Positions 1 to 31,778 of a stretch of DNA of 64,000 bases are shown piece after piece (positions within the stretch are counted from its first letter, which is position 1; each line of letters begins with the position of its first letter). The notes beneath the pieces were generated by a model. It worked only from the letters and a program-made list of their open reading frames with translations, ran no database searches and was not told where the DNA came from. The stretch comes from Bryoerythrophyllum caledonicum (Eukaryota; Streptophyta; Bryopsida; Pottiales; Pottiaceae). The stretch spans positions 34,607,856-34,671,855 of the forward strand of contig OZ020515.1 of the NCBI GenBank assembly GCA_963971425.1, read 5' to 3'. Made by a program: the position numbers and the translations under genes.

Positions 1-940
1 GAACTTTGGCCACGGATGTCTTACCAGAACGCAAGATGCGGGACTTGTGGGGCATGTGGTCAGCATTCCTATTAAGGATGACACCTAATGCTGCGATAGC
101 GACTACTATGTGATTTCTAGGTTTCCGTTTCCCAAGATTACCATGGGGCTGCGCGACTACACCAGCCGCTGCATCTTTAGCATATTTATAGAACGAGGTT
201 TCATTGACGCCCATGATGTGCTGCCAGGCAGCTGCGCACACATCAACACCCTCAATGGCTACCACATTTCTACCGTTATTGTCCACATGAAACTGTCCGT
301 GAACATCTAGCTTCATATGCCTTCTAAATTGAACAGAAGCACCAAAATACATCCTCATCCGCAATACCTTAATCTTCAATCATGGGAAGCGTTGAACACA
401 ACTCCTGGAGCAACAACGGTTTCCAGCAACAGAGTTGATAGATTCGTCACAGAGGAAAAATGATGATTTTGTTGAAACCATTGTTGGAGGGATCCTAGAT
501 GAACTTTCACAAGAGCGAGTCCTCACTCCAAGAGACCGGGTTCTCATTGCCATTAGAGAATTGTAAGTATCACACTCCTGGTGATGCAAGAGACTGACAC
601 TAGTATAGAAAACTTGACCAACAGGTCAAATCTTAACACAATAATGCCATTCGTCCGGTGCTTCATCTTCAACTAATGTCCTCGAGACCTGAATGGCAAC
701 GTGAGTATCACCTAATGGAGCATTAATCCCAAGAATAGCCGTGGTGTGAAGGTTACGAAGTATTCTAGTGGCAATTGTAACACCGGACAGGTTTTTCATT
801 TCGACTATCTTACCAACCCAAGAATGCCTTGGGAGAACTTTGAATTCCATCAAATTAGCATCTACTAGATCGTGGAAAGACGAGTCGTCACTTGACAAAT
901 CAAAATCATCGTCGATTGAGGCACCGGTTGAAGTGTCCAT
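1..940 (-). pseudogene. Transposon-type ORF, 5' part, two in-frame TGA stops
   Basis: A single minus-strand frame runs from an ATG at 938-940 to the left edge. It is broken only by TGA codons at 626-628 and 380-382. The protein starts with an acidic, serine-rich stretch (DDDFDLSSDDSS). A cysteine cluster follows (FLCDESINSVAGNRCC, then SRSCVQRFP) that could bind zinc. Next is a segment ending VCAAAWQHIMGVNETSFYKY, which looks like a helix-turn-helix module, and a basic tract. I see no catalytic domain, which would lie beyond the left edge. Both stops would be arginine CGA codons after a single C-to-T change, as expected from deamination of methylated CpG. I read it as the N-terminal half of a transposon protein from memory of similar repetitive plant ORFs. 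The family is not certain. Confidence 0.5.
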
Positions 941-1074
941 CTCGGCACTGCAAAGTTAAGGCGAAAGTGTAATTAGTTGACGTAGTACGATAGTACTCCA
1001 AGGTTCATCCCACATCAATCAGAGTGAACAAAAAAATAGCATCATGGTTCATCTCCACGATTAGGTGAAAACAA

Positions 1075-5967: not shown

Positions 5968-7059
5968 TTTATGTCAGTTAGCATTGAAAGAAAGTTTTTA
6001 GCAATCTTCACTATTTTCACTTAAAAACACATAGAAATTAAGGATTTCACTTTTTCTTTTTCTTTTTAAATTTTGCAGATAGGGGAAGCATGATGATTAT
6101 ATCTATTGCTTGGATATTAGATAAGACAAAAACAAATTCAAACAAACTTGCTTATAATTGTATTAGATCCAACAATTATTTAGAAAATTAAAATATTTAC
6201 GTAAATAAATGGCTACTTTCTATATCCTTCCTCATTGCAAATTTATCATTTTTATCCAAACCTAAATTGCAATTTTTAAGTCCATCTCTCTTATCCTAGA
6301 TACCTCCATTACTTGTGATTTTTGGCGTGCAATGACTTAAGACATGATAATATATAGATTCATCAATTTTTTGCAATGTGTAGTGGAAAAACATGTCATT
6401 GTCTTGAGTCAAAGTACAATGACCATGGTCGTGAAGGAAAGAAAAAAACAATATTGCACTCTTCAAATGCATGTATCTTACAAATTACAATTTGTGTTGT
6501 CAAAGTTCACAAAACGTTATGAGTGTCTTCTTGTAGTATTAAATTAGAAGATCCTATGATTGAAAATAGTCCCAAAAAGAAATTGTCTTCAAGCAACATC
6601 TCATTTTAAAGAGGCAATTTTGGGGTGGTATAAGTGAAACATCATCTCGGCCCTTTAGAGTTCATGTCTCCATACAAAGTTGGTGATGTTAATATTAAAT
6701 AGTTGTCTCTTGAATATTACTAGGAACTCCCTCTTTGGTCACAATTATGCACAAAGGTCTCACTTTTGAAGATGACATTATAACCATTTGTATACCATGT
6801 GTCAAGTTCACAAATATTTTGTTGATATAAAAAGACCATCATCAATCACATAGTCCTTTATTAGCACACAATCATTTCCATTTTAACCCCTTAAGGACCA
6901 AGTATCCCTTGGAAGGACAATTTCTCTTGATAAGAGCTTTGTGGAGGTATTTTTATTATTTTTTTGGATTCATGGTCTAAAAGTTAGTACCAAGCAAAGT
7001 TTGAAATAGGGAGTCCGGGTAGCTCCAAAATTTTCCTAGAGGTTTCTACTGACATTGAG

Positions 7060-7735
7060 ATTTTTCGTATGCATAAAAAATATTACCTTCTTTGGAATTG
7101 TCGAAAAAAGTTCTTGTCTACAGTGTAAAAAAAACATTTTAACCGAAGTCAAACATTTTTACACATTTTGGCTATGCGGGGCTAAAAGCTTTTTTTTCTA
7201 CATAAAAGCTAGAGATCTTCATATTTTTTAGTCTTTGATGTTTCAAAAACAATATGTGGCGAGAGCCGTCTTATTGACCATTTAGATTATCATTCTAAAA
7301 CATATTAGCTCACAAAAAAATAAAACGTAAAATGGCAATTTTTGAACCTCCACTTCTTGCACACTTGTTTTGAATATGCCACACCTCTTCTTTACGTCTA
7401 AAAATTTGGTGTGTAGGGAACTAACTTCATGCTCAACACAATGGTAAGAGATGTAGACCTTGTGTAGTGTAAAAATTTGATACCGAGTGAAGTCAAAGTC
7501 TGCTGATTCACTCAACGCAGAGTAGAAAATGAACTATTTTCTTGACTTCAAATAGTATGATATTTCAATCTGTGCACTCAAAGTTTTGAAATTTTGTGAG
7601 TATGTTACTTAGTAAGTCTTCATTGAGATTTTATGGTCGAGACTATAAATGTAAAGTTTTGTTTCCTTCCTTACTCATTGCACCAGAGTAAAAAAAATTA
7701 ATGTGTTTTTGGTGTGAAATTATCAAGGTCCTTTA
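7060..7735 (+). repeat. Dispersed repeat R1, copy a
   Basis: A non-coding repeat of roughly 0.65 kb that recurs at least six more times in this window. Landmarks in order are an AAACATTTTnACACA-type segment, TTATTGACCATTnGGA-like sequence, the conserved block TTTTGAACCTCCACTTCTTG, AATATGCnACAC, a CTTGTGTAGTG block, AAGTCAAAGTCTGCTGAT, and an end near GTGTTTTTGGTG. No ORF is conserved between copies, so it is probably non-autonomous. Ends are approximate. Confidence 0.7.
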
Positions 7736-11156: not shown

Positions 11157-11502
11157 GTATGTAATGAGCATCTCTTATGTTATAGCTTTTCATAGTAATC
11201 CATTGTAATTGATAAGAATCCTCATAGGTCATGTCACAGTTTCAAAATGAGTTTAGATTGTAGTATTGATTCAAATTCAATTGCGTAGTTCAAGGAAGGA
11301 TTGAAATTGATGAGTTTGGATTTGTGTTGATACGTTCCATATCTTCATCTGTGAAGGGTGCCAAAGAGTTGTGGAATCTCAATACCAACGAATCGAAGAG
11401 AAAATCCAGGAGACGTTGAAGCAAAAAATGGAAACGAGTTAGGCAGACTCCCATGGAACTTGCAATTTGAATGAATTTGTTATTTCTCATTCATATAATT
11501 CG
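11157..11502. other. Short gene-free stretch before the palindrome array
   Basis: No feature can be supported. A short plus-strand stretch near 11360-11440 could encode a coiled coil (VESQYQRIEEKIQETLKQ), possibly an unplaced upstream exon of gene P. Confidence 0.35.
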
Positions 11503-12071
11503 TGCATATTCAGCTCGAGTCGAGCTGAATATGCAATCCACGTCCAGAGCGTGGTGCACATCTTGCTCAAGTCGAGTTGAATATGCACAATTGGTTGATC
11601 ACGAGGTGCATACTTAGCTCGAGTCGAGCTAAATGTGCACTTTCAGTTTTGAATGATCTGCATATTCAGCTCGAGTGGAGCTGAATGTGCATGGTGGGTT
11701 GATAAAGTTAGCACGTTTGGATAATAAGAATGTGCATATTTAGCTCAACTCAAGCTGAATATGCACAATCTGATGAGCTTTTCGTACACATTCAGCTCAA
11801 CTCGAGCTGAATATGCACTTCCGGCTCATTAGTATGTGTGCAATTGATTGATCATAATGTGTACATTTAGCTCGATTCGAACTGAATGTGCATCTTAATT
11901 TTAGCTATGTGTGTACGTTCAGCTTGATTCGAGTTGAATATGCACGTTCGATTCATTAATTCATGCGCGTTACATAAATAGTAATCTGCACATTTAGCTC
12001 GACTTGAGTTGAATGTGCACGGCTAAACAAGCTTCGCGTACACATTTAGCTCGAGTCGAGTTAAATGTGCA
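11503..12071. repeat. Phased array of ten 33-bp palindromes
   Basis: Each unit is an odd palindrome of two 16-bp arms, typically TGCATATTCAGCTCGA and TCGAGCTGAATATGCA, around one central base. Centres lie at 11519, 11571, 11623, 11675, 11749, 11801, 11876, 11928, 12003 and 12055. Centre-to-centre distances are 52, 52, 52, 74, 52, 75, 52, 75 and 52 bp. The 19-bp or 41-42-bp spacers are unlike one another. Arm substitutions often occur in both arms together, for example TTAGCT with AGCTAA in the unit centred at 11623. An eleventh copy is centred at 12232. Confidence 0.95.
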
Positions 12072-12215
12072 CTAAAAATGATAAAAATCTAAAATCTGTT
12101 AGGAAAAGCAATTGTAAATATTAAAAAAAAGATACTTCAAATACACGTAGATTGTAATACAAGACTTACTTGAAACTTCTTGACGGAACCACACGTGTGC
12201 AATAAATTGTTGTAT

Positions 12216-12248
12216 TGCATCTTCAGCTCGACTCGAGCTGAATATTCA
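12216..12248. repeat. Palindrome upstream of gene P exon
   Basis: The unit centred at 12232 has left arm TGCATCTTCAGCTCGA and right arm TCGAGCTGAATATTCA. It is 177 bp beyond the last unit of the phased array and about 75 bp before the likely acceptor of the first visible gene P exon. Confidence 0.85.
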
Positions 12249-13767
12249 CAATCCAGGAAAAATTGTGACGCATTAAGCACCCATAGAAAAATTAACTTCA
12301 CGTATTGCTTCCATTGCAGAAATTTAATGAACGACTAAAAGGTCCTGGAGCAATACTATAAACCAACAAGTATTGCGATCGAGTCCGACGGTCGAGAGGA
12401 TGACGAATTACTCAACTAGTATGAGCTTTGAGATCCAGAGAGGCATGAGGCGTGGGGGTTCGAACATATCGATCACTCTAACAGCCTGGTATTGGCTCAC
12501 AAATATCAAGGCATGGATATGTTCTTGCACGTTTTAGCAGATGAAAAGATAATCGAGTTTGACCACCACAAAAAGTTCCTCGTGGTTAAATGTGAGACGA
12601 CAATTGAAAGCAGTCTTCAGTACACGGTTCACATCGACTGCATGACTCAAGTCTTCAGCCTTGATCCCTTTCTCGGCAGTATCGAGAATTCATTGTTTGA
12701 GCCAATAAAGAAAGACATCCTCAAACAGTAGGACGAAGATTACTGGAAGAGCAGCATTGGTGGGCCTCTTTGCGTTAAAGCTTTGTCATCGCAGTTGACA
12801 AGTCTCTCCCATGCAATGGCGATGAAGGTTCTTCAAAACTCACAGACCTCATCCAAGATGACTCCGGTGGAAGTCTCTCGGAGGACCAAGAGTGGCAACG
12901 TTAGTCAAGGCGGTAACAGTGGACAGAGGACTGTAGCGGCTTGATCTAGCAAAGCAAATCCCATGAAGTCGTTGTCTACAAACCCAACGCCACCAAAGAG
13001 GCAGCGTCGATGACTTGTTCCGGAGGCTTCAACTCAAAGAGCACTAAAATCTAGTGCAAAAAACCAAAAAGTTGGTAAGCCAGACCGTAAGGCGAGCATC
13101 GCCTCTACGATCACCGATCTACTGCACGAGTTGCGTCCCGGAGAAGCCATTGACTACGGGAATGCATTGGAGATGTACGAAAAGTTTTCAACAAATTGCG
13201 AGGGCTGCTTCCTCTACAACCCTGACATGAAGAAGGAGCTAGACGTGCGGCAGTTAACACCAGCACAAGAGGATTGGACAATTCAGGCCTTTGAGAAGAA
13301 GGGCATGGACATGGTAATGAATTACCTCATCCACATGCCCGATAAATCCATTAAACAGACGCTTTGCGTAATGCCGATAACAAAGGAGAAGCCTGATGGA
13401 GACTGGGAAGACATTTTGAAAGGGGAAGTTCTACATCATAAATGGCCAACATAGTGTGGCGGCAAGCAAAGCGATGATTGAAGATGAATCTATTGATGAG
13501 ACCACGGTGAGGCACTTTTGCGTGTGGATGTGCTATGTCGTATGGTCCGATGACAAAGAGAAGCTGCGAAAGATCTCGGCATTCTACAACCGAGTCAATC
13601 ACTTGTCCGTCTTCAAGCCAACGTGGTCGACCAACATCCTACCTACACGGTCAACCTGCACCAATCTATGTCGCCCAACACCACCATAGAAGAAGAATAC
13701 GTTGGGTGGCCGTGGAGCTCCAAGAGCCAACGACAAGGAGTATGAGGTAAACAATCATGATTGCAAT

Positions 13768-13843
13768 TGCATATTCAGCTCGAGTCGAGCTAAATATGCA
13801 AACCCTTAAATGCATATTCAGCTCAAGTCGAGTAGAATATGCA
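13768..13843. repeat. Two palindromes inside an intron of gene P
   Basis: Units are centred at 13784 (TGCATATTCAGCTCGA with TCGAGCTAAATATGCA) and 13827 (TGCATATTCAGCTCAA with TCGAGTAGAATATGCA), 43 bp apart. Both lie between the inferred donor at 13747 and acceptor at 13898. Confidence 0.9.
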
Positions 13844-14267
13844 CACCCTTGTCACCAGTTGTTCACTTTTACCAATACAATCGTTGCGCCTCCTGCAGGA
13901 ATCCATTCAACGTCGGTTTGCTTTCATTGACGTTGCGAAGAACGAGCAGTATGCTAGCAAATCTAGTCAGGTTCTTCAACTGGTTCTCACGAATGAGGTC
14001 AAGATTATCACGTCGCCTGATTCTACTTTCAATCTCTGGCGAGATGTGATGGCCGCAAGTGCTCAACGGGACTTGATTGACGTTGACACCAACCCCCTTC
14101 GTAAATTCAAAGACAACCTGAAGTCGACGCCAACGAAGAATTGTGGTGTGAATCAAGAGTTCTTCAAGTGGCTCGGTAGCCTTAGCAATGCAGACCATGT
14201 GAAGCTATTGAACGACATTTTGAACCGCAACGGACCAAAACGGCCACTGTAGTATCCGAAGGTGGTC

Positions 14268-14275
14268 ATCAAGAC
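14268..14275 (+). repeat. Target-site duplication, left copy (ATCAAGAC)
   Basis: The octamer ATCAAGAC directly precedes CAGGGTTG. The identical octamer directly follows the other end of the element at 32593-32600. Eight base pairs is the duplication length of hAT-superfamily elements. Confidence 0.9.
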
Positions 14276-14545
14276 CAGGGTTGTCAGGACGCTCGACGTC
14301 CCTGACGTTCGGACATTCGGACGTTCGGACGTCCTCGGGCCTATCGGGACGTCCGGTGACATAACGAGTTTCGTCAGTTTATCCAGGGGTAAATAGCCGT
14401 CCGTAGCCCTAGCCGACCACCCATTCCATCCGTCTGGGCCAACCGCACGGCCGTCCGTTGTCCGCCGAGGCCAACCGCCGTCTGCCAGGCTGTCTGTTCG
14501 GCCGTCCGTCGCGGCGGACAATCCTCTCACGACAACTCCTCCGCC
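14276..14545. promoter_or_regulatory. Left terminal GC-rich region with GACGTCC and CGTCCG repeats
   Basis: GACGTCC occurs near 14297, 14329 and 14348. GCCGTCCG occurs several times between 14395 and 14515. A TATA-like AGTATAAAG lies at about 14593, some 195 bp before the hAT start codon. I infer a combined transposase-binding and promoter region. Confidence 0.6.
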
Positions 14546-14787
14546 CGCTATTAGATTGACAATCTATCGTCTCCCAACGGTTAGAATCACCGTGAGTATA
14601 AAGAAAACAGCACATAGAGCCTCACTTTTGTTTTCCAAGAGCTTTGAGTTGCATTATGTATCCATTGTTTGGTAATCATCCAGTTCGGAAGTCTTGAATA
14701 TCAGAGTTTCTTTCGGAAATCCTGATATTTCTTCTACATACTTAGACCTCTCTCATTCGTTCATTTCTCGATACTACATCAATCAGA

Positions 14788-17123
14788 ATGGCCACCAAAC
14801 CTTGGTCTCTTTGGTATATCAAAATCACTGAAGTACAAGGCAGGAAGACCGACTTCCTCCGATGCAATCTTTGTCACCGCATTTTTGCTAGAAGGCTAGA
14901 ACGACAGCTAAGTTATCTCGGGTACGAAGAACTCCCTAGCAAGCGTAACAGCGGTGTCGGCCTCTGCACCAAGTTGACAACCCATATATAGACTTTATTT
15001 AAAAATTGTCGTGGCCACTACTTGAAACACAATGGAGAGCTTTTCTCCGAACATTGCCCCACTCCACCATTGAAATCTGCGCCTGCCTCAGAATATAGCA
15101 CGCCCAAGTCCACTGGTGGAGATTCTTGTGTAGGGTCCACTCAAGCCCCTCCCGCGTGATTTTACCATCAACCATGGTTAAATCGACTTCCACCTTCCAC
15201 GACTTCACTGAACAAGGGAGTATAAGTGCCACGTTCCCCAGATTGGTGAGGCAATCCGTGCTCGAAGAGGGCTTTCAAGAAGTGGAGCGGCGGGAGCTAG
15301 ACAACATGTGGGCGAAGTTTTTCTGCGAAGCAAACGTGCCGTTTGCTATAGCACGGAATGCTGCGTTCAAGGAAGCTGTGATGAAGACTACCTCTTTCAA
15401 AAACCATATGTCCCATCCTCTTACCATGACATTCGGACAAGGTTGTTGAGACAAGCGAAGGCTGATTTGGAAGCACAGCTCAACAAAAGATTGTTCAAGA
15501 GTGTTCGGAAGTTTGGAGGAACTCTAGCCATAGATGGGTGGACATCTGTGACTAGTCGCCTTTTGTTCAATGCAATGCTCGTGTCTCCCGCTGGAGAGCT
15601 CTTCTTGGGAGCTGTAGATACTACAGGCAAAGAAAAGAACGTTGCGTAATTGGCATCCATCATGTTCAAGTTCATTGAACAAGTTGGCCCCCACAACATT
15701 GTTCAGGTGTGTACTGACAATGCTCCAGTCATGTTCAATGCCTCAGAATTGGTCGTGAAGAAATATCCACACATATACATTCAAGGATGTGCCGCGCATG
15801 CCATAGACTTATTGTTGGAGGACTGGGGCAAGGCTACATAGATAAAAGAAACTCTCGAGAAGGCCAAGTTCTTGGTTAAGTTTGTCAAGAATCGGCAAAT
15901 GCCCCTCGCCGTGTTTCGTAAACACGAGGCCAAGTTCAGCCTATTGCTACTCGGGCAAACAAGATTTGCAAGTAATTCCACAATGATAGATCGCCTGTTG
16001 AAGGACAAGGAATCATTGGAGCAAACCGTCGTTAATCCTGAATGGGGGGCATACGCCTCCAAGAAGTCACTCTCGGCTAGAAATAAAGTAATCATTCGAG
16101 CCATAAAAAGAGTGGTTCTACATGAGCGTTTCAAGGAGCGGTGCACGAACTTCGAGGAGATGGTAGCCCCTGTAGTGTATGCGCTTCGGGAATTCGATGC
16201 CAAGGAACCTTGCATGCCCAAGGTTTTACACATCATTTACGACCTCAAGAAGCATGTCCTAGCGTTGCGTAATCAACCATTTTGTCTCGATAGCGATTTT
16301 GCGGTCATTGGTGAGGACGGGTTCTACGCACGGAAACAGATGATGACAACGGATTTACATTCGGCCGGTGCACTTCTCAATCCTTATTTACTCCCTGACA
16401 AAGAGTTGGTCGATGATCCCGATGTCATCACGGCATGCAAACCAGTACTACAAAAGCTATGTAATCCTAAGACTTACCCGGACGTGGTGAACGAGTTCCT
16501 CGCATTTCGGAACAAGGATGTACTATTCCATGACATGTTGGATCTTAAGGACCAAAAATGTTCTCCGTATGCTTGGTGAGATTTTTAAGGTGCTTGTGGA
16601 AAGCTCCTTGCACCAATTGCAAAGAGAATACTAGCGCAGACAGTGTCATCTTCTTCTTGCGAACGTAATTGGAGTAGCTACTCTTTTGTCGATGACAAGA
16701 AACGGAATCGGTTTATTATTGGGAAGGGCTGATGACTTGGTCTTTGTGTATACGAACTCAAAGTTGCTCGTGAATGCAAAGTTGACGGATGAGAAGAGGT
16801 GGTACACGGACAACTTGGATTTAGAGGATCCACAACCACGTGAGTCGGATGACCCGGACTACTCCGACGATTCAAGCGCCCGTGCCCTTGCCGATTACGA
16901 TGTAGAGCATCTAGACGATGATATCAACAACAGCCCTTCTCAACGTATGGATCATACTCACAACGCTCCAATCACCGAGTATGATTTTGTCGATGACGAC
17001 GTTATTGCACATAAAGAAGATGACTTGTTGCCCATAGCGCGGTACTTGAATGGAGACGGCATGGTCCATAGCAATAATATCCTTCGTCGTGAACCGACTC
17101 CGCTTCCGGAAGACACATTTTAG
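14788..17123 (+). pseudogene. hAT transposase remnant (BED-like finger, DUF659, dimerisation motif)
   Basis: The ATG at 14788 opens a frame with a BED-like start (LRCNLCHRIFA) that stops after 67 codons. A later frame (about 15126-15415) shifts near 15415 into one that runs to 16579 with stops at 15647 and 15839. The latter carries hAT landmarks: YHDIRTRLL, GGTLAIDGWTS (Asp codon at 15533), VCTDNAPVMF near 15713 and CAAHAIDLLL. The C-terminal dimerisation motif SSSCERNWSSYSFVD lies at about 16646-16690, after another frameshift, followed by RADDLVFVY and an acidic tail ending at 17123. The order matches plant hAT transposases of Ac/DUF659 type. It would cut and paste the surrounding element, but the frame breaks make it non-functional. 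Confidence 0.85.
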
Positions 17124-17255
17124 ATTGTAAAAGTTTAGGTTTACAAATTGTGAACCTTTATTTCAAAAAGTATGCCTCACCACGGCATGCTTCCAAGTTC
17201 TTGCCACACCATACCTCAAACAACTATGCTAAGCTTTACATTCATCTACCCCATT

Positions 17256-20200
17256 CTATTGCTTTGAAGAAGAAGGCTCGTCGGTATGATCCGTTCGAGT
17301 GCTACTACGAATCTTCGGTCTCTGGCTTGGCCTAGCAATCCTCCCCCCCTCTTTGTACTCTCGATCTACGGCTATAATTTTTCTGTGCATCTCCGACCAC
17401 CAACTATCATCGCTGTCATTGCCATCATCCCTCTTCCGCTTCCCGCCAGGATCCACCTTCTTCGCCACAAAGATTTCCATGGCCTTCTTTATTCGTTCCA
17501 CCACATTGTTCACAAAAGCGTCATTCTTTGGGAATGACACCAATAATTTCCATTCGGGTTTCTGTAGCATGTTCCGCCAATAGCCAATGATGTCCCCAAT
17601 CCTCCGATCAAATGCTTGCACCGCATCCCAATAAGAACACTCTACGTCTTTAAAAGAATCCTCTTCCTTTGAACTCCGTAGCTTTGCGGCCTCTTCCAAC
17701 TTTGCAAGGACCATGGCTTTTCCCACCAAAGTAAGATTGCACTTCTTGTACTCACCTTTCAACTCAGTGCCATCGTTTATCTCATGCCATACACCATCAT
17801 TGAGTCCCTTCTCAGCTCTCCTTGAAAAAAATCGGAAGAAACGTTTGTGCTCAGTGCTCCAATGCCCCCAAAGTTGCGGTAGAACAACTCTCGTTGCTCG
17901 CCATATTCAATCTCTCGCGCTCCTATTTCCACCTCATAGTCTTGTGTCATCCAAAATAATGGATCAATTTCCATCCCGTACTCTTCGTATAGTTGGTGAC
18001 AAGAAAACTCACTATTCCACATAAGTGGTTTTCCCCACTCACAATATTTCAAGGATTTCTTCGGAAGTTGATTCTAGGGGAGATTCCATCGGTTGAACTC
18101 TTGCCCCAGTGGCATAACATCTCTTATCCTCATCATTTTGTAGAATCTTGTGCTAATTGGAAAGCGACACATAGGACATGCCGATTGTATCATACAACCT
18201 ACGGAAATGCAAGTTATATGAAAGTTATGGCCACATTGGCAGCTTGGCCTAACGTATACGCTCCCTCCGGACCGAAATGATCTTGGCACAAGCTGCATTT
18301 ATCATTGAGGAATGCCGGGACATGGTCGCAAATATGGATTATTCTTCGCTCCAATTCTACAAAATGTGATGAAAAGGTATTGTAGGGCATCCATCCTTCC
18401 TTCACTTCTAAAGCCCAGTCAATGCCATGGCTCTTTCCCTTCCGATGATAGTTTGTGCAATCCATCATCTCCGGTACATCACCGCAAATAGTAAACTTCG
18501 TGGACTCATGTCCACATTGTCCAACGAATTTCTTCAATCTCTCCAATGAGATATCCACGAGTTCACATGATTCTTGTGATTTGGCGGCAAATTTCTTGAG
18601 ATCATGTTGTGCTTTTGAGACCATGGTCTCCTTGTCCTGAAGGGGATGAACCCAACCCAAACAAGGCATTGTATTCTCGTTCCATGGTGTGTCGTCCACC
18701 GATCTCAATGTCCTCCACAGTGTCTCTAGTTCCGCTCGTGCCTCGTCCCTCTCCTTATTTGTCACCTCCAACTTCTGTGAAATTGATTCCATCTCTCCCT
18801 CACATTCCATTATTGCCTTTCCTTTTCCAGGCGTTTCTGGCAGTACTTGGCTACTCCCACCTGGTACTGCCAATTGAACAGAAAAAGGTCCGGCGGTTCT
18901 GCTAGATTTGACCGGTGTGGCATCCTCAGCATCATTCCCTACAAACTTGGAAAGAGCGAGGTCGTCCGAAGTTTCCTCGTTGTCCTCAATGACCACCACA
19001 TCCACCTCATGCACCTACGCATTCATCTTCTCCGACATCTTGTTATGGAGTCTCCTATTAGCCTCCAGTTCTTGCTTGTTCCCTTCCAATTCCCATTTAA
19101 AGTCTCTGATGAGGATTTTATTTTTATAGGCCTCCTCCTCCATATCCATCACTTTCTAAGTTAGCACGACTCTTTCTCGTAACATTGGCAGTATACAGGA
19201 AGCCAATGTGTCGAAGCCATTAGCGCCTCGTAGTACATACGGAGTGATACTTGAAAACACATGAGCCATTTTTAGAAGAGAAGAAGCCATTGCTGCAAGA
19301 GTTTCTGCCCCGTTCTTCAAATCATAAGCCACTCCCAATACTTCATGTATTTCGGCCCATTTCCTCGAATCACTTCGCAGATCGACTCGATCACTCAATT
19401 CCTCTGCTTCAACGCACGCTTCAATCCACTTAACACTGAAGTCGAGCAAGTCTTTGAACTTATCCTTGTTTGGCATGGTTCGAAGCATTTCTTCAATATC
19501 GGAAATCAAAGTACCCTTGTCAATCATCGAGTCATTGGAAATTGGTTCCAATATTCCCCGCGTTGAAGTGTTTGGTCCGGCATCCATTGTCTCTGGTGCC
19601 ATGCCTTCCAAAGTTTGAACATTTGGAACAACGGTTTCTTCTCCATCCATATTCTCCCTCCCCCTCGTTTGGCGTTACCATCGTCTTCACCTCTTACAAT
19701 CACAGTATTTGGAATATCTAATTGTATGGGGTCTTCTACCGTCGTTACCTCCAAAGTCTCTTTGGGGATTGTGGTTGATAATATATTGTCGACCACAATG
19801 TCCAAATGTTTGTCAGACTCCATCACAACGGCAACCTCCTCCACGGATGGTTGTATTTTCGGCAAGGTATCCACCGCGCTCATCTGACGAGGCTTTTTCT
19901 TCAACTCCTCCAAAATAGCCTTGATCAAGGTCGATTCAGGATTGAATAAATCAGGAATATGCTTTTGATTTCGCCCAATCCTAAGCGGATATTGTGTAGT
20001 GGTCGGAAACATGCTCCAATCCATCTTTCGTTTCAACACAACCTCGGTATATACCATTGATAGTAGGCTGTAATTGAAAATTCCTTTTCTTTTTGGGCGA
20101 TTTCCAAACAAAGCCCGCCAAACCTCCTCCGCATGATAAATGAAGTGGTCATCTTTGCACATCCACGGCTTGCAAGCAAAGTAAGTTGTATGACTTATGT

Positions 20201-20438
20201 GGCAATCTCTTGGCCAAAGTTTATCGATGTGGTACATCTTCACGTATTTCTTGCATGTCTTGGATACCCAGTAATCCTCCATTTCAGCCTCCCAACCTTC
20301 CTCCGCTTGAATGTCTTCATTGTCCAAAACCTCCCACCGTAGATCATGAGTAGCACTTTTCTGTTTGAACCGTTTCTTCGACCCTCCTATTCCAATTTCA
20401 CTCACATCCTCCCCCACGATCCCCTTCTACGTCGCCAT
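17256..20438 (-). pseudogene. Long RING-finger passenger protein of the hAT element, decayed
   Basis: The likely ATG is at 20436-20438, with a TAG four codons in. The N-terminal module (CKKYVKMYHIDKLWP, DDHFIYHAEEVW, MVYTEVVLKRKMDW) is homologous to the ORF at 25171. After a frameshift near 19665 there is an acidic, helical region with stops at about 19158 and 19015 and a probable coiled coil (SQKLEVTNKERDEARAELET). The RING-H2-like motif is split by a frameshift near 18260: KCSLCQDHF, then CGHNFHITCISVGCMIQSAC, then PMCR. The basic C-terminus (GGKRKRDDG) follows further breaks and ends at 17256. Total length would be about 1050 codons. RING fingers usually mark ubiquitin ligases. Its role in a transposon is unknown. 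It converges on the hAT gene, leaving 132 bp between them. Confidence 0.7.
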
Positions 20439-20639
20439 GATAACGCTTGTTTTTAAAAAAACAAGCGCGGACACTCCGGTATTAATTCGTGAGTGAATGA
20501 TTCGGGAAATTAAGAAACGGTTTATCCGGTCACAATTAAAGGACCCCCGTCTCCTCACCTAGTAAGAGCAACAAGTACAGAAAATTGTAACTGCAGCACA
20601 TCCAACTCGGCATGAGAGGAGAGGAAGTGAGGAAAAAAG

Positions 20640-20822
20640 AAGTGGTCGTCTGCATGTATATGCGGACAGCCGCCTAACCTAACTGGGCGGCCGTCCGAAC
20701 CGGCTGTCGGCCAAGCCTGGCCTACCGCGCCGGCAGGCTGTCCGCCTGGCTCGCGTCTGCCAGCCTCCTCGAGCTGTTTTTTTTTTTCTTTTTTTTTCTT
20801 TTTTTTTCTTTTTTTCCTTCTA
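20640..20822. promoter_or_regulatory. GC-rich CGTCCG block and T-rich tract upstream of the RING gene
   Basis: GC-rich sequence at 20640-20770 contains GGCCGTCCG and several GCGGACAG or CTGTCCGCC variants, like the blocks at the element ends. Directly beyond it, 20776-20820 is a tandem T(8-9)C repeat of about 10 bp. The block stands about 200 bp upstream of the minus-strand ATG at 20438. I infer a promoter. Confidence 0.5.
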
Positions 20823-20879
20823 TTTACCATTTTTTCTCCTTTATTTTTTCCTTCGTTAAAAGTAATGTAAGGTGTTAAT

Positions 20880-21560
20880 CTCGAAGTACCATGACAGTTT
20901 TCCACCAAAAATACTTCAAAAGTATTGGATTATAGTGAAATGAACAAAGAAGGAAACAAGAACTTCAATTTTTAGTTTTGACCGTAGGATTTCAATTAAG
21001 ACTTATTAAGTAATGTACTCACAGAATTTCATAAACTTTGAGCACACGGTTTGAAAGTTTATAATGTTTGAAGTCAAGCAAATGGTTCATTTTCTTACCT
21101 CCACTCAATGGATCACCAATCATTGACCCAGTTGTTGTCAAATTTTTGCACTACACAAGGTTTAAATCCATTACCATCTTGTTAAACATGTTGATAGTTC
21201 CTCATACGCCAATTTTTAGAGGTAAAGGACGAGTGTAGCATATTCAAAACAAATGTGCAAGTATTGGAGGTTCAAAACTTGCCAATTCACACTTTAATTT
21301 TTTGTGAGATAAATATGTTTTTGATTGATAATCTGAATAGTCAATAGGAAGGCTTACTGCAGATGTTGTTGTGGAAAAAATAAAACATGAAAATTATGAA
21401 GATCTCTACATTTTATCTCGAAAAGAAGAATTTATATTTCGTACCTTGTCCAACAATGAGTGACAATGTGTGAAAATGTTTGACTTGGGTTGGTATGCTA
21501 TTTTTTAGTAAAGACAAGACTTGTTTTTTTACAATATCAAGGGAAGCAATATTATTTGCG
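20880..21560 (-). repeat. Dispersed repeat R1, copy b
   Basis: Reads as R1 on the minus strand. The block matching TTGAACCTCC lies near 21270, and the segment AAAATGAACCATTTGCTTGA lies near 21090. The end is at CCACCAAAAATACTTC near 20910. It is nested in the hAT element. Confidence 0.65.
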
Positions 21561-22171
21561 AGTATTGAAAATCTCACTTACAATAGAGTGTCGTAGCAAA
21601 AGTGTTTCCACGTTCCCGAGGTGGCCGCTCTCCCCATTGGAAATTCAAAACCCTATAATTTTTTCGTCAAATGTCCAATTTAAGAAAAAATTGTTTTTCC
21701 ACAAAATTATCGGTAATGCCTTTCTATAGTAAAAATTTCAAAGAAGAATGTTGGAAATTCACACCATAGAAACCTCACCAAACATTCAAAAAGCCCACTT
21801 TTCACACTTGATCCTTTAGGAGTTAAGATGGACCTATATACCGTAAGATAATAGAGCTAAATACTCTAAAGAAACCAAAATATAAGAGGGAGAGACAGCA
21901 AATATAAGGGAGAGACAACAAATAACACAAATATATTTGAAATATATTTGCTAGGGTGAAGCTTTTTCAACTTCGTAGGAGAGTTGTCTTATATACATTA
22001 TACTTTCCTCCTACCGTAGAATGTAAAGTAAACTACAAGCTCACTTTACTTTGAGCGAATACAGAAACATAAGTTCATTTTACCTTATGCGGATATAGAA
22101 TCTACTCATTGTTTCTAAGTTGACTTTCACTTTAACAATAGGCACAAAGGCTTTCATTTCTTTTTGCCAAT
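21561..22171. other. Gene-free stretch inside the hAT element
   Basis: AT-rich, with short repeats such as GGGAGAGACA(G/A)CAAATA. Nothing else is supported. Confidence 0.45.
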
Positions 22172-22394
22172 TTAACCCCTGTTAGCCCAAGTATCTCCAT
22201 GGTATAGAAATGCATACTTTAACAAGCAATTAGCTTTCAATCCGTACAATCAGAATTCACAAAATTTTGACCACATTATCTCATATTAGTTTAGAAGGAA
22301 ATCCTATAGTTACAATTTCAATAAGTTCTTCTTTGTAGTTATTAATCAACAAAGTAGAGATTAATCTAAAATCGCTTAGACCATTAGGGGTTAA
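22172..22394. mobile_element. TTAA-bounded MITE, copy 1
   Basis: 223 bp, starting TTAACCCCTGTTAGCCC and ending AGGGGTTAA. The interior matches the copies at 52085 and 59835: an AGCTTTCAATCCGTACAATC-like segment, CACAAAATTTTGACCACAT and a TTAGAAGG-AATCCTATAGTTACA segment. Short CCCCT/AGGGG terminal inverted repeats and TTAA boundaries suggest a piggyBac-type non-autonomous element. Confidence 0.65.
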
Positions 22395-22989
22395 AGGAGT
22401 CGGGATGAATTTTAAAAAACCAAAGAAATACAAAACGAATAAATAAATGAAGAGGACAAAAGGAAGAGAGTGACAATCCACAAAATTCCAGATCTGAACT
22501 AAAACGGAAAGAGAAGGGAGGGAGAGAGAGAGGGACATTTAAAAATGTAGATCTCATTTAATTTAGATGGAGTGAGTGGAGACGGGAGAGATGGACAACC
22601 GTTCAAGAAGATCCTAGTTAAATTAGAAGAAGAGGATCCAAGGCAAAATAATTCCACCTTCTTATTATTGGAAGGAGTGGAGAAGAATGAAAAAAATTAT
22701 AAATAAAAATAAAGAAGGTTCTTCAAAAAACAAAAAAAAAGGAGGCAAGAATGAGAGATGGACAATAATAAATGAAGTCTTCAGTAAATTAGAAGGGAAG
22801 AAAGAGGGTTTAGGCTTTAGGGACAATTATTGATTTAGATATTAAGTAATTTAGAAGGCATGAGTCTGGGAAGGAACATCCCTATTTTATTTTTAAAAGA
22901 CAAAAGGAAGAGAGGGACAACCAAATAAAAATTAAACTGTCAAGTAAACTAGAAAGAGAAGAGAACCAGAGAGAGAGAGAGGGACAATT
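22395..22989. other. Gene-free stretch inside the hAT element
   Basis: Purine-rich sequence with repeated GGGAGAGA and GGGACAA phrases. No gene. Confidence 0.45.
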
Positions 22990-23360
22990 ATAAATGTACA
23001 CCTTATTAAATTTGAAACATCTTGTTTTCTCTTGTACAAGATGTGTTATAAACCTTCTCATTGATTGTTTGGATAAACATTCTAAAAGATGCCTTGTGCA
23101 CAAAAAAGTGAAATGTGAATTGGCCATGTTTGAACCTCCACTCCTTGCACAAATTTGTTTGAATATGCTACTCCCGTTTCATACCTCTACAATTGGTGTA
23201 TATGGAATTAACATCAAGCTTCACAGAACAATATAAATTTACGAACTTTTGGATTGGATCAGGGTTTATAAAAAGCAAAGTCAAAGTCAAAGAATACCAA
23301 TCAACAATGGAAGAAAATGAACACTTTTTTTTACTTTACACACTATAATCTATCTATCCA
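22990..23360 (+). repeat. Dispersed repeat R1, copy c (partial)
   Basis: Contains TTTGAACCTCCACTCCTTGC at 23129, AATATGCTACTCCCG and AAAGTCAAAGTC at about 23277. It lacks the R1 3' part. Confidence 0.65.
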
Positions 23361-23639
23361 TGTGGTGGATTGCAACCATAAGAGCATGGTGTGTTCATAT
23401 GGAAGTCTACTTTAGGATCTTACGGTTTAAATTCTAAAGATCACTTGAAAAATGTGATTGCTATGCCTCTTTTTTGATGTGACGGTTTTGGACTAATTTT
23501 TTAGCTAAATTGACCATGTTCCTTTAGAGTTTCAAACAAGGGTAAAATATTTAGACCTTGCATATTACATAAATATGATACGAAGTGTTGTCAAAGTCTC
23601 AGTGTCCCATGAATATGGATCAACGCAGGGAAGGGAATG

Positions 23640-24250
23640 AGTTGTTGTTTGGATTGCAAACCCCATGATTTATCTATCCGTGCCGTTGATAGGAACCAAA
23701 TATATGAACACGCCATACTGTATTAGTTGCAAACTATGGCACGAATCAATAGATTATAGTGTCTATGTAATGTTTGAAATACAGAAGTTCCAAATCTTTT
23801 ACCATTGTCTTAAAAGTTAGGCATCATGTTGATACCCAATATACCAATTTCTAGAGGTAAAAGAGGGGTGTAGCATCTTCAAAAATATTCAACAACAAGT
23901 GGAGGTTCAAGAATGGCCAATTCATGTTACAATCACTTGTGAACTAAATATCTTTTAGAATGCTTATCCATATTCCAATTGGTCAATAAAAGGGTGTATA
24001 TCACATCTTTTAGGAGAACAAAAGAAGAAGTGGAAAAAAAAAAAAAATTGTAAGTTTTATTGAGGAAAACTTGAAAAGAAGAAGTTTTGTTGCACATTGC
24101 ACAAAAAATGGTGAAATTACTTTACTTCAAATAAAATGCGAATTTACAATGAAGACCATCATTTTTTGGGAAATCTTTAAAGAAAAAATATTTGAGATGA
24201 GTATGAAAAACCTCAACGAGTGAATGTCAATAGACAATTCTATAAAAGGA
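23640..24250 (-). repeat. Dispersed repeat R1, copy d
   Basis: Minus-strand copy. TGGAGGTTCAAGAATGGCCA near 23901 is the reverse of the conserved block, preceded by TAGAGGTAAAAGAGGGGTGT. With copy c it forms a rough inverted pair inside the hAT element. Confidence 0.6.
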
Positions 24251-24869
24251 TTTTAGATGCCCGTGCTCCCCATTTTTTACTATGGGTGGTACTAAATTTG
24301 AAACCACAAATCCAAAAAAAATTAAATTAATACATTCAAATAGCTCTTCCCATGGTCAAAGTAACATAAAATTTTTGAAAGTTGTTTCTTCATACTCGCA
24401 ATCTAGAAACCTGCCCAGAATTAAAAACTCGTCGCGAAGCAGATTTAGTCATGTAGAGGCCAAAAATCCTCCCATACAAAGTTATACCTATGCCGTGGGC
24501 AATGTACCCTTGGCCTTTCGAACATTGTGCCTGTGGGTCATTCCAATTTTCTCGTCGTGAGTCAAACATAAAAAAAGGAAACGAGCAACTCTTACATGTT
24601 ATGTAAGATATTTTAAGTGGAACCATTATTACAAAACTATATAAATCTGTGCTTCCACGCGCACAATGGAATATCCTCGTGAATGAGCATAAAATCTTCC
24701 CGGCATTCTTCCGACCATTAATACACGTGACTGGATCTCCAAATTTGGATTGCACGTGCAAAGTCAACCGTCCCAGAAAAGAAAGTGGAGGACAAGGGAA
24801 GGGAGTTGAGAGGGGAGAGAGTTGGAAGGGGAGGGAGCGTAACGAAGTGGAAGAGCGAAGAAAGGAGGC

Positions 24870-25040
24870 CGACCGATCGGGGTCGGCCGCAATCGTCCGT
24901 GGCGGCATCGTGGCCGTTCGATCCGGCGATACGCCCGAGGCCGTCCGCCATCATACGGCTCGGACGATTCGCTAACCGTCCACCGAGGCCGTCCGCCACC
25001 CGCGGTCGGCATAAAAGGCGGACGACCAACCATTCTTCCA
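24870..25040 (+). promoter_or_regulatory. GC-rich CGTCCG block with TATA-like box
   Basis: Repeated GGCCGTCCGCC, CGGCCGCAATCG and related phrases end in GGCATAAAAGGCGG, with ATAAAAGG at 25011-25018. This is about 155 bp before the ATG at 25171, the spacing expected of a core promoter plus leader. Confidence 0.55.
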
Positions 25041-25170
25041 CACTTTAGTGGGCGAGTTGGTCGCTTTGGCATATTCTGCCAAATCGCTTGCGCCCCCTTG
25101 AATGGCTCATTATTTTTTAATACATTTAATTCCCATTCATTCATTTCATTGTTTGTTCTAGTTAGGGAAG

Positions 25171-26098
25171 ATGCCAAGGTCTAACCGGCCCGTTGCTCCA
25201 AAGGGGAAAGCCCCCGAGATGGATTGGGACGCAACGAATGATCCAGATGTTGTTGCGGAGTACGGATGGCAGGATGAGGAAGAGAGGCTGTGGAATTGCA
25301 CCATGTGCAAGAGGTACGTGAAGATGAAGCACCTCATGAAGTTGTGGCCTTGGGCACAAACGAGGTTATGGGGGCCGCGGCACGAAGGTCTAGCGAGCAG
25401 TTGTCAGAGCGACCATTTCCACCATCGATATCATGAGGTCACTGCTGTAGTGGGTGTGCGCAACTCAAGGGCGGAGATCATGTTGTATCCGAACATGGCC
25501 ATGGTTTGGGCGGAAATTGTCCTACACAAGGATGTGGATTGGCGCACCGTGGTGGGTTGTAATATCGGCCTGATGGATTGGACCGCCCATTTTATACCAA
25601 CCACCTAGAATCAACCGAGTGATTGTTAGCCACGTTGGTCAAACCAAAGATCCGGGGACGATCCCGATGCCCCCAACAACGGCGGACACCTCCACAAAAG
25701 TACGGGGGCCATAACTACAACGACTACAACCGTGACAATGATATGGGACCAACACCCCTCAGAGCTATACGCCAACGCATCCAAGGGATACGTACGAGTC
25801 TGGTCGTAATTTCCCCGAAAAAGAGGAAGAACACTACACCCCAAGCTCTGCACACGTCTATTACGACGGATATAGCCATGCTTACGATGGATATGGCCGG
25901 AGCTTAGATGGGAGAGACAACACGCCTCCATCAACGTTTCCACCTCGTCAGAACGAAGATGCCGAGTTTGAGAGAAAAATGCATGAAGCCACGATACAGA
26001 GCCAGAAGGACTACATCCACAGGCTCGAAGATGAATCTCGCTACATGAATAGGCAGTACAATAACTTGTATGATGTTTATTCAAGCGGGCCGTACTGA
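25171..26098 (+). pseudogene. Passenger protein homologous to the N-terminus of the RING gene
   Basis: The ATG at 25171 opens 145 codons ending at 25608. The core reads CTMCKRYVKMKHLMKLWPW, SDHFHHRYHEV and MVWAEIVLHKDVDW. It matches the first 150 residues of the minus-strand protein at 20438 in order and spacing, including a tryptophan/acidic stretch before the core. After frame breaks, a further open stretch from about 25795 carries an acidic and tyrosine-rich part (EKEEEHYTPSS, YYDGYSHAYDGYGRS) and a helical end (RKMHEATIQSQKDYIHRLED), stopping at 26096-26098. I do not recognise the domain. The pattern C-K-x-Y-V-K-M...K-L-W-P...D-H-F...M-V-x-x-E-x-V-L...D-W defines it. No catalytic motif is visible. 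Confidence 0.65.
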
Positions 26099-28327
26099 AG
26101 TGGCGCTCGGCCAAGTCAAAGACGTGATATTGACTCAGATTCCGATTAATCATACATGGTCTTTGTGTAATGTATTCCATGTGGATAATGTCTTCATGCG
26201 AGAACAATGTTGACTATTTTGTAAATTTAGAAGGTCATTTTTTAAGATCTTCAAATTGATGTTTATTAAATATTTCTACGTTGCGGCTATGTCAATGTGG
26301 ATGATGAATGTACAATGCATGTTACGCGTTTCCAAATGAATTTTATTGATAATTTTTTAGTATGAGTAGATGTGTGGAATGAGAAATTTTTATACATTCC
26401 AACTTTTCATTCACCTCATATAAGTTCAAGAGTATTTCATATCATTACATGTTCAACAAATTTCTTTTTACAACTTGTACCCCTAAAGTTCCTTGAGTAT
26501 TTCTCACCCAAAAGTTAAAGCAAGAAGACGAACGCCGGTCCGCGAAGGGGCCAGCGGAATAAAGGGTCTGTTCGTTCAATCACTAAGACCATGCCCACCA
26601 GACCCCGTGTCGGGGAGGGCTTGGTTTGTTTTCAATTTTGCGTTGGTGTAGTAGAATGGACATGGCCTGTTGAATGGCAACGGTGTTAATAATATTGAAA
26701 GTGTGTGAAATTGTTTCGATGGAGATTTTAAAGGTAAATCAAAGGATATTTATAGATGGAATAAAGGTGGTGGCACGAGCACCGGCAGTGATTACAACAA
26801 GCAAGTCCATTTTCCATCCGAGGGCAACGATGTCATTAATAAGGGGTTGCCCGATTGGTATTCAATTATTTTGTTTTCAATTGTTTCCGGGGAGAATCTA
26901 TCATAATTACAATATGTGAATTCGATGAATTGAATGGTATACTCTTGGTTAATGTGGTGGGGTGCAGGGTCATTGTATGGTAGGCCCCGAATGCAAAGTA
27001 TGTCGGCTTTGAGTCTAGCGTTACAAGGACAGCGCTAAGTTGCGCATGTACATGTGACTCGGGAGTAGCCAAGGGGGGACCGTATTTCTTTGTGGGTTGT
27101 AACTTGTTATTAAAAGTGCCCGCATTTATGAGGACAAATCATCGTGATTTGTTATGGGAGGTAAATAGTTTTCGAATTTCCCATACTGCTTTGTTATGTC
27201 TTGTGACAATTAAGGAGTGTATGTGATGGTTTTGGCATTTTCAGTAGAACATGGAGTGATTTGTCGAGGTCTGAGAAAGTGCATATGGGGCATGTTACAT
27301 ATGGGAATTTTCTATTCCAAATAAGAGTTGATTTCGGGCGTTTCCCATATATCGACTATTACGGAATTTGATGATGCATGTTATTTGTGAGTTTGGGATG
27401 ATGGGATTCTTCCAAGAATTTGTAGAGAGTTCATAGTCTATTTTGTTGTTGCCAACCCATTATTCTATATTAGGGAAGTTTTCTTCGATTGTGTCAAGGT
27501 TGTTATAGAGGTCTTGATTCTTGAGATATTTGTTCAAGAATAAAACCGGAACCTTAATCGGGGGTATCCTCTTTAGGAGGCCAATCTTCTTTTTGGAAGT
27601 AGTATGGGGTAGCATGTGCATGTTCGTACGAGTCTTTGGCATTTTCATGTGTTTTTTTGCGGACCTCTTTTCCAAGTTTATTTGCTTGTTCGTTTCCAAC
27701 AATATTTGCATGAGCAGAACTTTGTAAAGGGTTGTTTTATGTGTTCAGTTTAGTAACATGTGGACCAACGACATTAAAATAGTTTGGTCGAGATGGCTAT
27801 TGTAGAAGATAGGATTTGTTATTTGGATGTTTAATCGATAAAGTGCATTGATACAGTCAGTGAATATGTGTGCGGGTTTGTTGTTGTATTGTGTTGTGAT
27901 GATTTGTAGTGTTTTGTGTATGGCCATAAGTTCTGCTCTAAGGATATTTTAGTGTGTGGAAATTACTCCATAGAGTACACAAAATAGTAGACCAAATACC
28001 TTATACAATATCAATGAATACAACAAAATCTTCCTATAAGCATTTTTGCTATTCATATTTGAATGCCTCTACATTTTAATGTATGCATGTTTTTATTAAT
28101 GATTGCATATACTTCATTGCTTAAAATTGTTATGGTTCTAGATGACCGAGTAAATATGCCGTAGCAATCTACCTACGGAGTTAGCCATTGAACTTCCTTA
28201 AAATGCTTTATAAACACTCACAAGAATGTGGTTTTTGGAAAACCTTCTACGCAATTTATTTTTTCTACTAAATCAAAACCCTACTTAGAGATCCGATATC
28301 CACTATTAATATAAATTGGCCAATTAT
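26099..28327. other. Gene-free stretch inside the hAT element
   Basis: No conserved frame or repeat that I can name. A short GC-richer patch lies at 26520-26640. Otherwise AT-rich. Confidence 0.45.
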
Positions 28328-28936
28328 AGTTTCATCCACTGTGGATGAAAATAGTCAGAGGATGGAAAAGCAGTCCGTGGTTGAAAAAACAGTCCTCGGA
28401 CGAAAAACAGACTTCGGAAGAAAAATCGTCCGCAAATGACTATGGCTAAGTGTTAAGAATCATCACGAACACTATTAAGAAACACTTAATGTTTGTAACC
28501 CACTCCCTCTCTACTCTTCCAATTTTTTTAAGTAATTTTGAAATGAATCTTTTTCTTAATATTCGGAAATATAGAAAATTCATTAAAATGGATGTTATAA
28601 TGCGTTGCAGAACAAGCGCGAACCACTACTAAACTTCTATAGATGCAAACTAGCGGTTGGTGCTTGCTTTGCAACGCATTAGTCCAACCATTCTAATGTA
28701 GTTTAATATTATAATTTGTTTTTCAAAATTTGTTTCGCAGTCTAATTTTCATCCGCTGCAAAAATTCCATCTGCAGTCTGATTTTCATCCGCAGTATGAT
28801 TTTTCATCCACAGTTTGTTTTTTCATCCGCAGCCTATTTTTGTTCTTTGCGTTGTTTTTCATCTGCTGCAGAAATTTTCATCTGCTGCGAGATTTTTCTT
28901 CCGCCGTATAGAATTTCATCCACAGTGGATGAAACT
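28328..28936. mobile_element. 609-bp MITE with 23-bp terminal inverted repeats
   Basis: The left terminus, 28328-28350, runs AGTTTCATCCAC then TGTGGATGAAA. The right terminus, 28914-28936, is its exact reverse complement. Each terminus is itself nearly palindromic. Subterminal parts are packed with TTTTCATCCGCAGT-like units on the right and mirrored GGATGAAAA/GGACGAAAA units on the left. No coding potential and no clear target duplication were seen. Confidence 0.65.
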
Positions 28937-29429
28937 GTTTTTTTGCAAAATAAACTTAACAGGGAGTTAATAACTTCCAAAATATTCATTTTTTGGAATT
29001 CCGACTTCGGATTTCGGCTTTTTAGGTGCGTTTTCATCTAGTAGGTTAGCAAAAAAATTATTACAAAAGTTTTGAAAATTTGACATTTTGGAGTGTATTT
29101 CAAAATAACATTTTAGGGACTAAACTTTGGATGTAGATTATGGCTAGAGAATATGTTCGTCACATTCGATCTCATGCATGTTTTTTGTGTGTTAGTGTTG
29201 GTTGTGTTTTCAAATTTGTTATATATGGCGATATTCATTTACAAGACATGTGAGGTGTCTCATTTGAAATCTCATTTGAAACAATAATATGATGATGGAC
29301 ACCAAAAGAATACAATTGGATGGAAGGGGACGTCGCCAAAGCGTGCATGAACCCTAAACATACAAAGTTTGAATCAAACTTTTAACTTTTCTGTCCACCT
29401 GATTCACATGTAAATATTTAGAAGAATGT
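28937..29429. other. Gene-free stretch inside the hAT element
   Basis: AT-rich. Nothing identified. Confidence 0.45.
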
Positions 29430-30130
29430 ATATGACAATGTCATGGAAAACCTCATGAGAAATGATGTTTTTCACCGTTACCTTGAAAAAACAAGTCTTC
29501 TCTTTACTGAAAAATAGCATACCAACCCAAATCAAACATTTTCACACAATGTCACTCATTGTCGGGCAAGGTACCAAAAGATCTTATTAATTTTCACATA
29601 AAACCTACATATCTTTGTATTTGTTACGTTTTATTTTCTCCACATTAATATGTGGTGTAAACCTTCTTATTGACCATTCGGACTAGTAATCCAAAACACA
29701 TTAAGTTCACAAGAAATAAAAGTTTGAATTGGCAAATTTTGAACCTCCACTACTTCCACAGTTGTTTTGGATACGCTACATCTGTCTTCTACCTCAAAAA
29801 ATTGTTGTCTAAGGAACTAACATCATGCTTAAGGTAGTGGATTTAGACCTTGTGTAGTTTTAAATTTTGACACCAGGTAAAGTCAAACTCTGCCGATCCA
29901 CTAAACGTAGTGAAGTAAATGAACCATTTGCTTCACTTCACACACTATAATCTTTCAATCTGTGCGGTCAAAGTTTTTGAAATATTGTAAACATATTTTT
30001 TAATAAGTCTTAATTGAGATCCTACGGCCAGAACTAGAAATCAAACTTTCGGTTTCCTTCTATGGTCATTGCACTAGAATCCAACAACTTTGAAGTGTTT
30101 TCGGTGCAAAACTGTCAGGATAACTTTGGG
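29430..30130 (+). repeat. Dispersed repeat R1, copy e
   Basis: The fullest copy besides a and g. It has TTTTGAACCTCCACTACTTC at 29743, CTTGTGTAGTTTTAAATTTT, AAGTCAAACTCTGCCGATCC, AATGAACCATTTGCTTCACT, and an end near GTGTTTTCGGTGCAAAACTG. Confidence 0.7.
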
Positions 30131-30289
30131 GATATAGGAGACATCTTGTATGAGTAGGGAGTCGGGCCTGAGGAGGCGTTTCAAATGGGGGTAATTTTTA
30201 TAAATGCTAAATTATATTCAAGAAACATATAATGGTTGAGGTTATGTATGATTTAGTGCCATGGGCACTATGATCTGTCCAAAAAATTC

Positions 30290-31760: not shown

Positions 31761-31778
31761 CTTCTTAAAAGCGCGGCC

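Follow-up and report, generated by a model that had tools for sequence, protein, structure and literature searches.

The ten 33-bp palindromes (consensus TGCAYATTCAGCTCGANTCGAGCTGAATRTGCA) at positions 11503–12071 of a 64,000-nucleotide stretch of Bryoerythrophyllum caledonicum DNA (contig OZ020515.1, positions 34,607,856–34,671,855; hereafter the window) belong to a giant, multi-copy DNA transposon with terminal inverted repeats (TIRs), in which the same palindrome is repeated in gene introns, near the transposase end and in miniature inverted-repeat transposable element (MITE) derivatives. In the window, the array lies within intron 1 of an element gene that we call A1. The palindromes are probably sequence-specific DNA sites for a protein encoded by the element and used in transposition, in control of the element’s genes, or in both. 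As judged from sequence, an array of putative binding sites for a dimeric protein is our best functional guess.

The units of the array start at 11503, 11555, 11607, 11659, 11733, 11785, 11860, 11912, 11987 and 12039, and their number, length and centre spacings (52, 52, 52, 74, 52, 75, 52, 75 and 52 bp) are exactly as an earlier note on this DNA gave them. The array is far above chance expectation: with up to three mismatches allowed, a 21-bp core pattern is matched 19 times in the window and never in 100 dinucleotide shuffles. Beyond the ten units of the array, the window holds others starting at 12216, 1075, 1120, 13768, 13811, 33600, 33660, 33720, 35210, 35306 and 35404, 21 in total.

Two copies of the transposon could be delimited at both ends on one contig, C1: E1 (C1:2441102–2474921; 33,820 bp; flanks CTGT/CTGT; L055, L026) and E2 (C1:15569639–15592434; 22,796 bp; flanks ATTT/ATTT; L060, L059). 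Both have 27-bp TIRs with 0 mismatches, and their flanks are 4-bp target duplications. The two sequences were read except for 8,993 bp of E1 and a central ~12.3 kb of E2; where compared, they are 98.6–100% identical, so movement or duplication was recent. E1 is ~11 kb longer than E2, and an insertion or rearrangement inside its A1 gene is likely, because homology between L032 and L031 stops inside A1. A transposase-like gene with a Pfam DUF7869 match (E 5.5e-25) is read toward one end of the element, and A1 and a second gene, A2, are read toward the other. DUF7869 is a putative transposase core. The window has a minus-strand gene homologous to the 5′ portion of the transposase-like gene, a portion that in E1 shares its reading frame with the DUF7869 part. 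Between the two parts there is, after 164 codons, a stop codon (or else an intron), so that they can only be presumed to form one gene.

Two MITE families (163 bp and ~237 bp) have in common a 27-bp TIR, AACACCATATTCATTATATTGGGAGAT, that also terminates the big element. Their 4-bp duplications were recognized by eye in L016, L027, L028, L034, L036, L037, L039 and L040 and were not clean in L035; L038 and L044 were left out. The interiors of the MITEs are mostly poorly alignable despite the one palindrome that they keep, which is alike, as counted by eye on an alignment, at 31 of 33 positions between one MITE1 and one MITE2 copy. That elements reduced to two ends keep the palindrome is the strongest argument for its presumed binding by an element protein.

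Exact cores number 840 in the genome, with none for the backward control. We examined 47 of the first 50 listed core places, all in the first 18 Mb of contig C1, and assigned each of them according to its likeness to the window, to a MITE or to L026, L031, L032 or L033. All but one (46/47) come from the element or from one of its MITEs: 29 lie in A1 or A2 introns, three in the transposase-gene intron, three at the transposase end, five in MITE1 and six in MITE2. The last, L041 (C1:12774400–12775800), has five palindrome-like units; neither MITE matched it, and the A1 array matched it weakly (72.5% over 120 bp).

Within the fetched parts of E1 there are 32 units with at most 6 mismatches of 20, after removal, as chance, of three other matches that fell in coding or non-homologous sequence. 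The first intron of the transposase-like gene has six, arranged head-to-tail in 34-bp steps, and four lie between the stop of the DUF7869 frame and the TIR, with centres ~210–570 bp from the end. A1 has twelve units in intron 1, three in intron 2 and two in intron 3, two more stand before A2, and three weaker ones lie toward the A2 end. None of the 89 units at six loci falls within A1 or A2 coding matches (the coding sequence of the transposase-like gene stood outside this test).

Gene structure in the window was derived from alignment and splice-like letters. Two relatives, the contigs L002 and L003 (CADCWO010000243.1 and CADCWO010000269.1), carry open, intron-bearing copies of A1. Their proteins match the window’s A1 at 12315–13743, 13890–14285, 32606–33571 and 33817–34565, and its A2 at 35750–36554 and 36745–37017. 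These matches, together with a short upstream exon bearing the ATG, which intron 1 directly follows, place the array in the first intron of A1. This intron, inferred by alignment, spans 11439–12319 on the plus strand, with the acceptor ...ccattgcag at 12319 (the exon-2 protein match starts at 12315); its donor reads TT in the window versus GT in seven other aligned copies. It also contains the eleventh palindrome (12216–12248). Exon 2 (12320–13746, plus strand) is degenerate, with stops and a frame break near 13420–13454. Intron 2 (13747–13898) has two palindromes, 43 bp apart (13768–13843), beginning 21 bp past the donor. Exon 3, also on the plus strand, is cut by a hAT insertion into a first part at 13890–14275 and a second at 32606–33571, for which a methyltransferase-like fold is predicted from the relative L002. 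Intron 3 (33572–33834) has three palindromes, 60 bp apart (33600–33752), beginning 28 bp past the donor. Its two spacers repeat one another in inverted orientation (20/27; 0/5000 shuffles), and palindromes and spacers together (33599–33753) form a 155-bp higher-order palindrome that is 85% identical to its own reverse complement. Exon 4 follows at 33835–34802 (plus strand; protein match 33817–34565). Three more palindromes, 96 and 98 bp apart (35210–35436), lie upstream of an ATG at 35508 that is preceded by an acceptor-like ...atttcag at 35507; we read them as lying within the first intron of A2, whose donor was not located. A2 itself (35750–36554, plus strand) has a NIF-type phosphatase-like domain (PF03031). 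At the other side of the window, positions 1–947 (minus strand) are the 5′ portion of the transposase-like gene, whose presumed DUF7869 portion lies in L054, immediately beyond the left edge of the window, and two palindromes, 45 bp apart (1075–1152), lie in its apparent first intron (~1470 to 948, minus strand). The distance from the donor to the start of the first unit is 17–28 bp in introns 2 and 3, as seen in L002, L003, L031 and the window.

The regular spacing of the array comes from its history. The earlier note had called the spacers unrelated, but they are alike in register: the six 19-bp spacers have 100 in-register matches summed over 15 pairs versus 71.7 expected (p 0.0004; 2/5000 shuffles), and the two 42-bp spacers are identical at 24/42 positions versus 11.4 expected. 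Spacer words of the array are found again in other genomic copies, and a repeat search of the window finds a 126–127-bp higher-order unit. Because the spacers match both one another and other copies, the 52/74–75 spacing is to be ascribed to tandem duplication of a ~127-bp two-palindrome unit, which was then passed on in each copy. This inheritance answers the note’s argument that spacing of this kind would not survive ordinary insertion or drift, since the 52/75 pattern is also present in other copies of the element, some of whose arrays include 49, 50 or 51 bp as well as 52 bp, and 77 or 97 bp as well as 75 bp. In the copy L031 there are repeated 104-bp blocks and 52-bp steps with repeated units. 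The number of units differs among copies. A collapsed assembly, a possibility the note had raised against itself, is not supported either, as the pattern recurs at several separate assembly places.

The note had also proposed helical phasing, in which the spacing itself is under selection to put every bound dimer on the same face of the helix, and we now consider this very improbable. The values 52 and 74–75 bp are near five and seven helical turns, and 52 bp is the commonest distance among the arrays examined. However, the same site occurs at 34, 43, 45, 60, 71, 96–98 and 112–127 bp in other arrays, the transposase-gene array having steps of 34 bp in one copy and of 45 bp in other copies, and the array spacers are homologous. 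The 32 distinct neighbour distances below 200 bp (27 to 198 bp; 20 loci) have no 10.5-bp period (Rayleigh R 0.22, p ~0.21), as was also the case for an earlier list of 18 distances (R 0.28, p ~0.24). Helical phasing is thus not supported, and the spacing is historical.

What A1 encodes is of interest because it may be the protein that binds. For A1, folds like those of ParB and of a methyltransferase are predicted, the ParB-like domain falling in exon 2 in structure models of the relative L002. The tetrapeptide [DNS]PP[YFW] is in none of 40 aligned rows, some of them partial (P0145 is without letters in the stretch shown), and at its expected place, as located by eye, most rows read DFRxxP; catalysis is therefore doubtful. 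No Pfam domain passed the cut-off for A1. A search of NCBIfam yielded just one match, of phosphatase type and below cut-off, and sequence searches of the PDB were empty or gave chance matches. Each palindrome is centred on GANTC with the middle base free (for example, 11517–11521). GANTC is the recognition sequence of CcrM, which is among the methyltransferases with a fold like that predicted for A1 exon 3, and the GANTC centre may be coincidence.

We propose that the palindrome would act as a double-stranded DNA site, with the half-site ATTCAGCTCGA in two-fold symmetry, and that its binder would be element-encoded, the candidates being the transposase and the ParB-like protein of A1. The clusters near the end and the single sites in MITEs could serve transposition, in end recognition or synapsis, as the subterminal repeats of CACTA/Spm and Ac do, and the first-intron clusters could let the same protein control the element’s own genes. 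Several observations weigh against this proposal. Most of the sites are intronic and not subterminal, unlike classical transposase sites, and those toward the A2 end are weak, with 2 to 6 mismatches. ParB-family proteins read parS via a helix-turn-helix, and a helix-turn-helix was not identified in A1; in Foldseek searches neither A1 model had a match reaching E 0.001, and TM-scores were low. A constant position past the donor would also suit a role in splicing. Within intron 1, palindromes diverge less than the remainder in 10 of 15 copy pairs, but the two are about equal in five, with one reversed. Both this divergence measure and the near-invariance of columns 7–16 are biased, because resemblance to the consensus core (columns 7–16 and their mirror) was the criterion by which units were picked.

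The element’s palindromes might alternatively work as RNA, with transcribed hairpins aiding splicing or feeding production of small interfering RNA (siRNA) or microRNA (miRNA) against the element, and we regard this as unlikely. The units are intronic and kept out of the A1 and A2 coding matches, their distance past the donors of introns 2 and 3 is similar in four copies from two distant lineages, and a 33-nt palindrome is able to fold back. Shuffling of the right arms of 95 units gives modest covariation (z 3.0; columns 5, 6 and 9), with the best of 2000 shuffles slightly above the observed value. However, sequence is conserved more than pairing, the palindromes have no loop, and there are sites in non-genic MITEs as well as past the stop codon of the DUF7869 frame. 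Sense-strand mispairs in the A-gene units of this genome (102 distinct units in the set) have no RNA bias, with 71 G-U, 64 A-C and 85 others. Columns 8, 10, 12 and 13 are nearly fixed on both sides, and the column pattern matches, with due caution, the look of a two-fold symmetric DNA site. Among 17 distinct units in L002 and L003, column 6 and columns 8–16 are nearly fixed and the outer five are variable.

That the palindromes are functionless repeats, spread by slippage, unequal exchange and gene conversion, purged from exons and tolerated in introns, also seems improbable to us. Tandem duplication is plain in the 52-bp steps of L031 and the 34-bp head-to-tail array of E1, and spacing and unit number vary between copies. 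Passive spread does not sit well with a core that is kept at the same place in separate introns of two lineages, the alignable DNA of L002 and L003 being just 65–68% identical to L031, nor with its retention by two MITE families or with the absence of any palindrome, within the window, from the hAT insert and from the sequence right of the element. We think it rather less likely still that a host transcription factor or silencing protein binds the 33-mer, so that the element hijacks a host site or is marked through it. First-intron clusters resemble enhancers, and decay of the units is rich in C>T/G>A (159/455 changes), as would be expected for methylated DNA; such decay suggests that of methylated repeats (A>G/T>C accounts for 127 changes, 90 of these at the two-way columns 5 and 29). 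However, all but one of the sites sampled in the first 18 Mb of contig C1 lie in the element or a MITE derived from it, so that this sample shows no host gene with the site in use. Binding by an element-encoded protein remains the reading that we favour.

A bolder form of that reading, to which we give a low probability, is that the giant transposon runs its own ParB–parS-like system. A1, with its PH-like, ParB-like and methyltransferase-like parts, would load on clusters of the 33-bp palindrome and spread from introns and ends to join the ends of the 23-kb element, mark its own DNA, or hold genes on or off. If true, this would be an intron-embedded, self-recognizing address code of a mobile element.

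The nearest named relatives of the element’s proteins are from Physcomitrium patens, in keeping with the note’s reference to plants. In an exact search of one genome per species for 84,980 prokaryotes, the core was found seven times on two contigs of a cyanobacterial metagenome-assembled genome (MAG) and once in Rhizobiales. Within the MAG, the 17-bp core is only on L002 and L003 (12 places; control 0). These contigs are evidently, from their sequence, mis-binned eukaryotic DNA; with the protein P0003 (AVDCRST_MAG94), they look like transposon DNA, apparently moss-like, filed as cyanobacterial. A bacterial element was rejected, as the MAG contigs look mis-binned and, having introns, eukaryotic, and the core is on only those two. 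The Rhizobiales match (L001) was taken for chance, ~0.2 being expected in 257 Gb at equal base frequencies. A viral origin was likewise rejected, with no viral contig having the exact core; three stretches fit a peptide pattern, and none encoded an A1 relative. The window’s degenerate exon, used as a protein query, gave eight candidates and no matches. We recognized no published account as describing this element, judging on titles and abstract openings.

The window copy is broken. It is collinear with L031 (82–93% identity by stretch) except at 14276–32592, where an 18,317-bp hAT-like insertion is flanked by an 8-bp duplication (ATCAAGAC at 14268–14275 and 32593–32600) and corresponds to an empty site in L031. 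The insertion carries a DUF659 fragment at 15212–15649 and a protein-kinase-like fragment at 30862–31638 (minus strand; E 1.4e-5, below the Pfam cut-off), and itself holds other repeats. The idea that the array represents subterminal repeats of this downstream DUF659 hAT was rejected, the hAT being a later insertion without palindromes; a scan for TIRs and target site duplications of a hAT around the array found nothing convincing. The right TIR of the element is at 38054–38080 (minus strand; 1 mismatch of 27; flank GTAT). The copy is without its left end: transposase-side homology stops in L054, where no left TIR was found with up to seven mismatches allowed. Elsewhere in the window there are a dispersed ~0.6–0.7-kb repeat, with copies 66–79% identical (7045–7733, 20884–21587, 29486–30117 and 53032–53655), and retrotransposon polyprotein pieces with RNase H and Tf2-type SH3 domains (42236–44432, plus strand). 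A known RNA family or tRNA was rejected, with no Rfam match at gathering score and no tRNA.

A periodic array has thereby become a defined cis-element of a 23-kb DNA transposon that has transposase-like and ParB/methyltransferase-like genes and ~30 palindrome copies. The palindrome is kept from coding sequence and retained in two lineages between which the introns are otherwise not alignable. Should an element protein bind it, the palindrome would show how so large a cut-and-paste element may recognize itself across 23 kb.

Parts of this arrangement have counterparts in known systems. Beta-class DNA N6-adenine methyltransferases (M.BceJIV, RsrI, CcrM) and MTA1/METTL3 differ from A1 in having the [DNS]PP[YFW] tetrapeptide. 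ParB–parS systems (ParB, Noc, KorB) are similar in that a palindromic, clustered site is found in the same element as a predicted ParB-like domain, but the likeness to ParB here is of a predicted fold alone, without a PDB sequence match. CACTA (En/Spm) and Ac/hAT elements have many short, mostly subterminal motifs bound by element proteins, and target duplications of 3 bp (CACTA) and 8 bp (hAT). They share with our element the many repeated sites near the ends and partial derivatives that keep the ends, whereas here the sites are 33-bp palindromes mainly in introns and the target duplication is 4 bp. Sola superfamily DNA transposons have been reported in the moss Physcomitrella, and the published account describes them as mostly 2–9 kb, with some above 15 kb, and with a 4-bp target site duplication (PMC10741241). 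Our element resembles Sola in its TIRs, 4-bp target duplications, moss relatives and possession of a transposase-like gene; it differs in its size of 22.8 kb (33.8 kb in E1) and in carrying A1, a phosphatase-like gene and arrays of palindromes.
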